DNA of 7,850 bases from Acidobacteriaceae bacterium (GTDB lineage: Bacteria; Acidobacteriota; Terriglobia; Terriglobales; SbA1). A program made the translations under genes and the position numbers. Where the stretch lies: NCBI GenBank assembly GCA_003156615.1, contig PMHI01000762.1:3831-11680 (forward strand), given 5' to 3'. Below the pieces are notes generated by a model that worked only from the letters and a program-made list of their open reading frames with translations, did not search any database and had not been told where the DNA came from. Positions within the stretch are counted from its first letter, which is position 1, and each line of letters begins with the position of its first letter. Shown here piece by piece: positions 5,766 through 7,825 of this stretch.

Positions 5766-6755
5766 TTGAGCGCACCGGCCATCATTAACGGGAAGGAAAT
5801 CTTCGACCTGCTGCGCGATGACCTCGCGGCGCTGGAGGGCGAGTTCGAGCAGGATACCGTTTCGAGCGTGCAAGCCATTACGGAGATTGGGGAGTATCTG
5901 CGGGCCGGCGGCGGCAAGCGCATCCGTCCGGCACTTCTTTTTCTTTCCTCCAAGCTGTTCCAATACGAAGGGCGCGGCGCGGTGCGACTGGGAGCGGTGG
6001 TTGAGATCATCCATACCGCCACGCTGGTGCACGACGACATTATCGACGAGGCAAGAACCCGCCGCGGCCGGCCCGCCGCTAATACCCAGTGGGGAAATTC
6101 GAGATGCGTGCTGGCGGGCGACTGGCTCTATATGCAGGCCTTCAAAATAGCGGTGCAGGAGCGGAACTTCCGCATTCTCGACACGCTGATTGAACTGACG
6201 CAGCAGATGGTTGAGGGCGAACTGCTGCAGATAGAAAAACTCGGTAGGCTGATTACTCTGGAGGAGCATTTCGATCTGATCTACCGCAAGACGGCTTGCC
6301 TGTTTTCGGTTTGCATGCGGCTGGGAGCGATTCTGGGGGGGGCGACGTCGGCGCAGGAAGAAGCTCTGGCCCAGTACGGGCACGACCTGGGCATGGCCTT
6401 TCAGATTGTTGACGACGTGCTCGACCTGACCGCATCCGAAGATGTTCTGGGTAAACCGGTGGCGAGCGACCTGCGCGAGGGCAAGGTCACCATGGCAGTG
6501 ATCCATGCCCTGGAGCGCTGCACGGCGGAGGAACGAGCCAAAATTGAAACCATCCTGCGCGACCGCGCCTTCAACGGCGTGACCCACGCACAGATCATGG
6601 AAATCCTGCAACGCTACGGGGCGCTGGAAGCGGCAAGCGCTCGCGCCGCACAGTATGCGGAGTCCGCGCGGAAGGCAATCTGCACCCTCCCCGATTCGGA
6701 GATCAAGCGAGCGCTGCTGTGGGCCCCGGAGTTTGTAGTGGCCAGGGAGAAGTAG
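5766..6755 (+). CDS. ispB: Long-chain trans-polyprenyl diphosphate synthase
   Basis: All-trans prenyltransferase that extends farnesyl or geranylgeranyl diphosphate with isopentenyl diphosphate, most likely making the side chain of the respiratory quinone. The 329-residue protein has GGGKRIRP (48-55), the first Asp-rich motif LVHDDIIDEA with DDIID at 90-94, RRGRPAAN (99-106) and the second Asp-rich motif DDVLD at 216-220, followed by VLGKPVASDLREGKVT. A small residue, Ala, sits five positions before the first Asp motif, which fits a long-chain product. The start is TTG 5766, preceded by GGGAAGGGG with 8 nt spacing; no in-frame ATG precedes the conserved region. Chain length, and whether the gene should be called ispB, hepT or hexPS-like, cannot be fixed from sequence. 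Confidence 0.9.
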   Translation: MSAPAIINGKEIFDLLRDDLAALEGEFEQDTVSSVQAITEIGEYLRAGGGKRIRPALLFLSSKLFQYEGRGAVRLGAVVEIIHTATLVHDDIIDEARTRRGRPAANTQWGNSRCVLAGDWLYMQAFKIAVQERNFRILDTLIELTQQMVEGELLQIEKLGRLITLEEHFDLIYRKTACLFSVCMRLGAILGGATSAQEEALAQYGHDLGMAFQIVDDVLDLTASEDVLGKPVASDLREGKVTMAVIHALERCTAEERAKIETILRDRAFNGVTHAQIMEILQRYGALEAASARAAQYAESARKAICTLPDSEIKRALLWAPEFVVAREK

Positions 6756-6856: not shown

Positions 6857-7825
6857 ATGAATTTCTTTTTGCTGATGGCGCGCCACGGATATGTTTTGAC
6901 CTTCGGTCTGTTGCTGGCGGAGGCGATCGGGCTTCCCTTTCCGGCGGCGATCGCGCTGGTGGCGGCAGGAGCCACGGTGGCGGCGCACGGATTATGGGGT
7001 CCGTACGTCTTGCTGGCAGCGATCACCGCCTTGCTGTTAGGTGACACCGTGCAGTTCTGGCTGGGGCGATACATGGGCTGGGCACTGCTGGGATTCCTGT
7101 GCCGCGTATCGATCAATCCGGAGACCTGCATCCTGCGGTCGGCGGAGTCGTTTTACAAGCGCGGCAGAACCACTCTGGTAATTGCTAAGTTTATCCCCGG
7201 CGTGAACACCATGGCGGCGCCGCTGGCCGGTAGCATGAAGATGCGGTTCTGGCAGTTTCTGTACTTGGACTTCATCGGCTCCCTGGTGTATGCCGTCACC
7301 TATCTTTTGGTGGGATATCTTTCGCGCGATTTTCTGGCTTCCATCTTGCGTGGGTTTCGCGCGGCCGGGCTGGCGATGGAAGTAGTCGTGGTCGCCGCGC
7401 TGGTCGTGTATGCGATCTACCGCTTTGTGCAATATCGCAAACACAAGATGTATCGCGTGGTGCCGCGGATTCAGGTTCAGGAGTTAGCCGCGCGTTTGGC
7501 TTCTGAGGACGCAGGCAAGGTGCTGATCGTCGACGTCCGCAGCCACGGCTACTACGACTCAGGGTCAGCGCGGATCAAAAACTCGATCCGGATCGAACCC
7601 AACAATCTTGAGGAAGAGATCAAGAACCTTCCCAAGGACAAAGACATTTATCTTTACTGTACTTGAGCGCGCGAAGCAACCAGCGCCCGGGTGGCGCATC
7701 TGCTGCGGGAAAAAGGATTCAACACGTTCGTCATTGTCGGCGGATTGACTGCCTGGCGCAAAGCCGGCGAACCGCTAGAGTCGGTACCGCAGAACGATCT
7801 GGTGAAATTGCCGACGTTCAGTTAG
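6857..7825 (+). CDS. DedA membrane protein fused to a rhodanese domain, predicted selenoprotein (Sec270, TGA 7664-7666)
   Basis: Inner-membrane protein of 322 residues read through an in-frame TGA. Residues about 8-190 are a DedA (SNARE-associated/VTT) domain: EAIGLPFPAAIALVAAGA near residue 21, the KFIPGVNTMAAPLAGSM signature (111-127), and hydrophobic segments near 11-43, 47-66, 133-156 and 172-190. DedA proteins are implicated in transport of polyprenyl-phosphate or phospholipid. A cytoplasmic rhodanese domain follows (about 202-310): VLIVDVRSHGYYDSG, then IYLYCT, TGA, and AREATSARVAHLLREKGF, then VGGLTAWRKAGEPLE. The frame ends at TAG 7823-7825. Without the 52 residues after TGA the rhodanese fold and its anion-binding loop would be lost. 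In DedA-rhodanese relatives, as I recall them, this position is Cys (YC[ST]CP motif). A SECIS-like hairpin follows the TGA. Start ATG 6857 gives a normal DedA N-terminus; no strong ribosome site. The alternative is a Cys-to-stop mutation or sequencing error. Confidence 0.85.
7664..7666 (+). other. Predicted selenocysteine codon (TGA) in the rhodanese active-site loop
   Basis: Codon 270 of the DedA-rhodanese frame. Aligning the following T-S-A-R-V-A to the standard C-x4-R-S-A-x-A-A rhodanese loop places this codon at the catalytic Cys position. An ordinary Cys lies two residues earlier (C268), giving a C-T-U motif. The downstream frame has no other stop until 7823. Confidence 0.8.
7667..7706 (+). 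promoter_or_regulatory. Candidate bacterial SECIS element
   Basis: The hairpin lies directly after the TGA and inside the coding region, as bacterial SECIS elements do. The upper stem is GCGCC 7683-7687 paired with GGCGC 7693-7697, five GC pairs. The apical loop is CGGGU 7688-7692, with G at the second position. Below, C7681-A7682 pair with U7701-G7702 after a 3-nt bulge on the right side, and GCA 7676-7678 pairs with UGC 7704-7706. The loop begins 21 nt after the TGA, within the 16-37 nt spacing described for bacterial SECIS elements. SelB binding is inferred. Confidence 0.7.

Follow-up and report, generated by a model that had tools for sequence, protein, structure and literature searches.

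The subject of this report is a gene encoding a fusion between a DedA membrane domain and a rhodanese domain, which lies in a 7,850-nucleotide stretch of DNA (the window) from an Acidobacteriaceae bacterium (assembly GCA_003156615.1, contig PMHI01000762.1, positions 3,831-11,680 of the forward strand). The reading frame, the last gene of the window, extends on the forward strand over positions 6857-7825, from an ATG to a TAG stop that follows residue 322, and is interrupted by a single internal stop, the TGA at 7664-7666, which is codon 270 and is followed by 52 sense codons. When this TGA is read through, the protein carries an N-terminal DedA/VTT domain (residues 28-155, positions 6938-7321), whose PF09335 score of 54.9 bits lies above the gathering cut-off of 33.9 and places the protein in that family, and a C-terminal rhodanese domain (residues 209-302, positions 7481-7762), which passes the gathering cut-off of PF00581 with 49.2 bits. 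The latter score drops to 26.8 bits if the protein is cut at the TGA. A preliminary description had held that the codons behind the TGA complete the rhodanese domain, and this is borne out by the gain in score; the segment beyond the TGA also includes the invariant residues G296 and W300. The residue encoded by the TGA would stand two positions after the invariant Cys268 (positions 7658-7660; 181 of 181 aligned rows), giving a Cys-Thr-selenocysteine motif, and 16 nucleotides behind the TGA lies a hairpin that resembles a selenocysteine insertion sequence (SECIS; GCGCC-CGGGT-GGCGC, positions 7683-7697). From these comparisons of sequences we consider it very likely, with a probability of roughly 0.93, that the TGA is decoded as selenocysteine (Sec) and that the gene encodes one DedA-rhodanese protein of 322 residues. 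The preliminary description had proposed the same, and the proposal is supported by the codon found at this position in relatives, by the Sec machinery of their genomes and by the hairpin.

A scan of GTDB genome contigs yielded 39 related loci in 37 genomes, all of them acidobacterial (Acidobacteriaceae, Acidobacteria, Terriglobia and Candidatus Sulfotelmatobacter). The column of codon 270 reads TGA in 37 of 38 of these loci, the remaining one (L034) reading NNG at an assembly gap; a further locus, L039, ends short of the column. We also searched the 299 genomes of the class to which the genome of one of these loci, L001, belongs. In the 150 matches listed, which come from 142 genomes, the column holds TGA in 76, TGC in 56 and TGT in 18, that is Cys in 74, and nothing else. 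The comparison with homologues that had been suggested as a check of the Sec proposal accordingly finds no codons other than TGA and those for Cys in any genomic locus that has sequence at this position. Near and distant relatives each have both forms, since TGA and Cys occur among the 45 listed class matches with 42-89% identity to the window (13 TGA, 32 Cys) as well as among the 105 with 32-40% identity (63 TGA, 42 Cys). The loci of the more distant band (L127-L231) form a second set of DedA-rhodanese fusions, which share the TGA column and have an almost identical hairpin. Two genomes, G324 and G112, were seen to carry one TGA copy and one Cys copy each.

If the TGA were a true stop, the gene would encode a DedA protein of 269 residues whose rhodanese domain is only half present, and the remainder would be a decaying remnant or the product of a sequencing error. 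Gene callers do end the gene there, as had been anticipated: among the 120 top-ranking database proteins retrieved with the whole protein, 102 terminate in LYCT or VYCT, directly before the column, and truncated proteins of this kind, 269 residues long, carry the NCBI name 'VTT domain-containing protein' (P0012). However, the same TGA recurs in many separate assemblies, and exactly one in-frame stop lies within the aligned gene in 113 of 113 TGA loci, the second stop counted in the class search for G117, G183 and G095 being the gene's own end. Moreover, the codons after the TGA are under purifying selection. In 43 comparisons with the window, the median ratio of nonsynonymous to synonymous substitution rates (dN/dS) is 0.069 over the 49 codons behind the TGA and 0.050 beyond the hairpin, as compared to 0.081 for the 60 codons that precede the TGA. 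The part that would be lost also holds the two invariant residues G296 and W300. We therefore regard a true stop as extremely improbable. Database proteins with a length of 300-345 residues and sequence at the column number 207, of which 206 have Cys there and one has Arg (P0002), and over 120 database hits of any length the count is Cys 116 (111 assigned by motif and 5 by eye), Ser 2, Arg 1 and Gly 1.

The hairpin had been noted earlier as SECIS-like, and its behaviour in relatives agrees with that assignment. Its stem, GCGCC paired with GGCGC, has five base pairs enclosing a loop of five nucleotides and is formed by codons whose silent sites are frozen in TGA copies. Leaving aside L034 and the three duplicates L067-L069, codon counts rest on 103 distinct TGA copies and pair counts on 107, each compared with 73 distinct Cys copies. 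At codon +7 Ala is written GCC in 99 of 99 cases in TGA copies as opposed to 22 of 44 in Cys copies, at codon +9 Val is written GTG in 89 of 89 as opposed to 18 of 40, and at codon +10 Ala is written GCG in 99 of 100 as opposed to 36 of 73, while the loop codon +8 varies in TGA and Cys copies alike. From the outside in, the five pairs are kept in 104, 107, 107, 107 and 107 of the 107 TGA copies, whereas they are kept in 44, 35, 61, 66 and 26 of the 73 Cys copies. Two-sided changes occur too, from G-C to A-U in three TGA copies (L078-L080) which belong to one clade and perhaps reflect one event, and from C-G to U-A in one further TGA copy. With RNAalifold, the TGA copies yield a four-pair consensus stem, whereas the Cys copies yield no consensus stem. 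All this indicates that the hairpin is selected for in TGA copies and has decayed in Cys copies, and we predict that it serves as the SECIS. A scan of the window against Rfam gave no match.

Is the machinery for such decoding at hand? The search for it that had been called for was made in the 37 genomes in which the loci of the contig scan lie, that is, in relatives. Scores over the cut-off were obtained there for SelB in 35, SelA in 34 and SelD in 36 of the 37 genomes. A match to tRNA-Sec of 64-72 bits was found in 30; the total of 33 genomes over the cut-off includes weaker matches near 47-50 bits, which may be other tRNAs. ARAGORN called all 20 of 20 fetched tRNA-Sec sequences as tRNA-SeC with the anticodon UCA (tca); its scan of the window detected no tRNA. 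Among 14 control genomes, 2 were over the cut-off for SelB, 1 for SelA (Escherichia coli), 2 for SelD and 5 for tRNA-Sec, the latter number falling to 2 (E. coli and Methanocaldococcus jannaschii) at a stricter E-value. SelD is itself a known selenoprotein, and 31 of the 36 SelD matches in the relatives' genomes contain one TGA in frame. In 18 fetched copies of SelD, the TGA stands at the KAAG-x-ASK motif in 13 (KAAG-U-ASK; L277-L289), which have a hairpin of their own behind it, Cys takes its place in 4 (L290-L293), and in 1 the motif was not located. The in-frame TGA in SelD provides independent support for Sec decoding in these relatives. In the wider class, selA was found in 221 of the 299 genomes (E-values up to 1e-20) and a tRNA-Sec match in 206 (E-values up to 1e-10). 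For the 142 genomes with matches listed, selA or tRNA-Sec is present in 75 of the 76 that carry a TGA copy as compared to 29 of the 66 that carry Cys copies only. Counted per locus (75 and 1 versus 32 and 42) the link between TGA and machinery gives p = 9e-16 in Fisher's exact test, a value inflated by kinship.

The TGA might also be read in some other way: an opal-suppressor tRNA-Cys could insert Cys, or leakage could place Trp there. Non-canonical suppressor tRNAs have reportedly been found in Acidobacteria, and a strong tRNA-Sec is lacking from some of the genomes that carry TGA copies, both of which would fit such a reading. It would, however, have to be reconciled with the presence of SelA, SelB, SelD and a tRNA-Sec with the anticodon UCA in most relatives, with a hairpin that is kept in TGA copies only, and with the TGA at the Cys/Sec site of SelD in the same genomes. 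In addition, other genes still end in TGA: tatD and the yajQ-like gene of the window both do so, which indicates that TGA continues to serve as a normal stop codon here. Suppression or leakage thus appears highly unlikely to us, if slightly less so than a true stop. Pseudogene, sequencing error, stop-codon reassignment and suppressor tRNA were set aside on the evidence given for these rival explanations, and no suppressor-tRNA search was made.

Several observations weigh against decoding of the TGA as Sec. The Sec machinery is shown in relatives, the window's own genome lying outside the sample of 37, and 7 of these 37 genomes are without a strong tRNA-Sec. One genome of the class, G161, carries a TGA copy yet shows neither selA nor tRNA-Sec. 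A test of independent pairs on the tree was not significant, and the link between TGA and machinery is confounded by kinship. The folding energy of the hairpin region compared to synonymous shuffles is a weak signal, with a mean z of -0.51 in TGA copies and -0.22 in Cys copies, and 13 of 107 TGA copies and 6 of 73 Cys copies are among the most stable 5%. Finally, four database proteins have neither Sec nor Cys at the column, namely Arg in P0002, Gly in P0128 and Ser in P0153 and P0204. The Arg and Gly codons could each differ from TGA by a single base (CGA, GGA), and all four cases may be sequencing errors or real losses.

As for the exchange between the two forms, we built a tree with FastTree from 181 rows, the window plus 180 loci, after excluding the motif and hairpin columns. 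The Sec/Cys label changes at least 15 times on this tree, with 10 changes forced by starred branches, as compared to a mean of 57 for shuffled labels; the count is rough, since the program gave a warning about meeting long branches. TGA copies are present in at least 76 of the 299 sampled genomes of one acidobacterial class. Nature offers two sets, Sec and Cys proteins, that allow a comparison of what Sec adds.

To what extent is such a protein new? Rhodanese-like selenoproteins are known, as had been pointed out before. The best NCBIfam match of the window protein is NF041203 (rhodanese_LYCAU, rhodanese-related (seleno)protein; 88.7 bits), with which it shares the rhodanese domain and the LYC-x-(U/C) motif, present here as LYCTU. 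The 126-position model matches the rhodanese part only (residues 195-308), however, and the window protein adds the DedA domain. Its score lies under the equivalog cut-off of 115 bits, as do those of four Cys relatives (77.7 to 91.5 bits), and we therefore do not file it as a member. In the available part of the May 2026 review of prokaryotic selenoproteomes (PMC13188914), the CxU rhodanese selenoprotein (rhodanese form 3) is a known kind, and TsoB (NF045694, Rhodanese/DsbD fusion-like) is likewise a rhodanese selenoprotein fused to another domain. Going by its description there, TsoB differs in that it carries a pair of Sec residues arranged as UxxxxU and is joined to a DsbD-like partner. The Cys-type DedA-rhodanese fusions, for which NCBI uses the name 'DedA family protein/thiosulfate sulfurtransferase GlpE' in the case of Cys relatives of the second, distant group, combine the same two domains in the same order but have Cys at the Sec column and no UGA. 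DedA-rhodanese fusions are described in the accessible text of PMC10127716, and PA1209 of Pseudomonas aeruginosa can be likened to the Cys type by its description in the part of PMC12893004 at hand. A Sec-type DedA-rhodanese fusion was not found in the literature searched (selenoprotein or selenocysteine combined with DedA, rhodanese, acidobacteria or undecaprenyl; supplements lay outside its scope), in line with the preliminary description, which knew of none. Within the main text of the 2026 review, as far as it was available, there is no DedA, SNARE, VTT, PF09335 or Acidobacteri, and the architecture is absent from its list. Deep-Sep, according to the portion of PMC12013277 available, returned three known and no new selenoprotein genes in the acidobacterium Occallatibacter riparius, a strain in which no check for the fusion gene was made. 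Rhodanese selenoproteins and Cys-type DedA-rhodanese fusions are therefore already known, and it is the combination of Sec with DedA that is new to the searched literature. Standard annotation cuts the fusion short, its close relatives being deposited at 269 residues.

But what might a DedA domain do with a selenol? The DedA part of the fusions has features of its own. Cys82 (positions 7100-7102) and Cys91 (positions 7127-7129) are present in 181 of 181 aligned fusions and in none of 27 DedA-only paralogues. In the first reentrant helix, the second acidic position is Ala31 here; it holds Asp or Glu in 2 of 179 fusions as opposed to 24 of the 27 paralogues. In the second reentrant helix, the position of the second Arg is occupied by Asn117 here, and Arg is found there in 0 of 181 fusions as opposed to 25 of 27 paralogues. 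Both positions were mapped by alignment without a reference flippase in it. A rule in the available portion of PMC10127716 ties the second basic residue of the second reentrant helix to flippase activity. The fusions thus share the DedA/VTT domain with the undecaprenyl-phosphate flippases of the UptA/COG0586 kind but differ from them in lacking the second acidic and the second basic residue and in having the extra Cys pair. Structure searches re-found rhodaneses over residues 200-318 only and barely probed the DedA part.

It could be argued that the gene does encode a selenoprotein, but one whose DedA part flips undecaprenyl phosphate in the ordinary way and whose rhodanese is an independent, membrane-anchored sulfurtransferase. 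A gene for a polyprenyl synthetase (window positions 5766-6755) precedes the fusion in most close relatives (L001-L039), with a variable gap between the two, and would fit such a function. Then again, as a clue to a flippase this neighbour says little and was discarded, because the larC-metG-tatD-yajQ block before it is conserved too. The two altered positions of the reentrant helices argue against an ordinary flippase, as do the scores of 41.8 and 33.5 bits with the UptA models of NCBIfam, whose cut-offs are 300 and 250, and the fact that the Cys82/Cys91 pair goes with the fusion. We thus think this arrangement rather unlikely, although clearly less remote than the two other ways of reading the TGA. 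Since the DedA core is without the two residues tied to the flipping of undecaprenyl phosphate, its cargo is probably another one.

The preliminary description had also placed the TGA at a functional Cys position. The column, with TGA or Cys in all genomic loci with sequence there, agrees with this in so far as Sec and Cys alternate; which residue occupies the catalytic seat is another matter, as alignments to a solved rhodanese disagree on whether it is C268 or U270 that takes the place of the catalytic Cys. According to the positive-inside rule, the distribution of charges predicts that the loop with Cys82 and Cys91 lies on the cytoplasmic side of the membrane, as does the linker that leads to the rhodanese, which means that Cys268 and Sec270 could exchange with Cys82 and Cys91. 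Taken together, the Sec head, the fusion-specific Cys pair and the missing flippase signature point to redox-coupled transport and offer a handle on why DedA is fused to rhodanese. In the mechanism that we propose, the SelA/SelB/tRNA-Sec system would insert Sec at the TGA, with SelB binding the predicted SECIS hairpin 16 nucleotides downstream. Cys268 and Sec270 may then form a selenenyl-sulfide or a perselenide and so constitute the redox or sulfur/selenium-transfer centre of the rhodanese head. This centre might exchange with the Cys82/Cys91 pair in the DedA core, and the head would thereby drive or gate whatever the altered core moves. Having Sec rather than Cys may speed up the head or protect it better from over-oxidation. 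Speaking against such a relay, the Cys pair is missing from one of five proteobacterial fusions (L299). We tentatively suggest, as a possibility rather than an expectation, that these proteins represent a new class of DedA transporter with a fused selenol head, in which electrons or sulfane sulfur/selenium passed to the Cys82/Cys91 disulfide would gate or power the transport of something other than undecaprenyl phosphate, and of which Sec and Cys versions have been swapped many times within one acidobacterial class.

Cupriavidus metallidurans, of which Ralstonia metallidurans is the older name, has a DedA-rhodanese fusion of the Cys type in which all four Cys are present (L295). A DedA protein, perhaps but not necessarily this fusion, has been linked to selenite in this species in a report available in part. 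Besides the fusion gene and the polyprenyl synthetase gene, the window contains argS, which is cut by the window edge, a nickel-insertion gene (larC-like), metG, tatD and a DUF520 gene (yajQ-like). Two differing copies of the fusion gene, L005 and L010, were found with the same gene block in one metagenome-assembled genome (palsa_199), perhaps a mixed bin.
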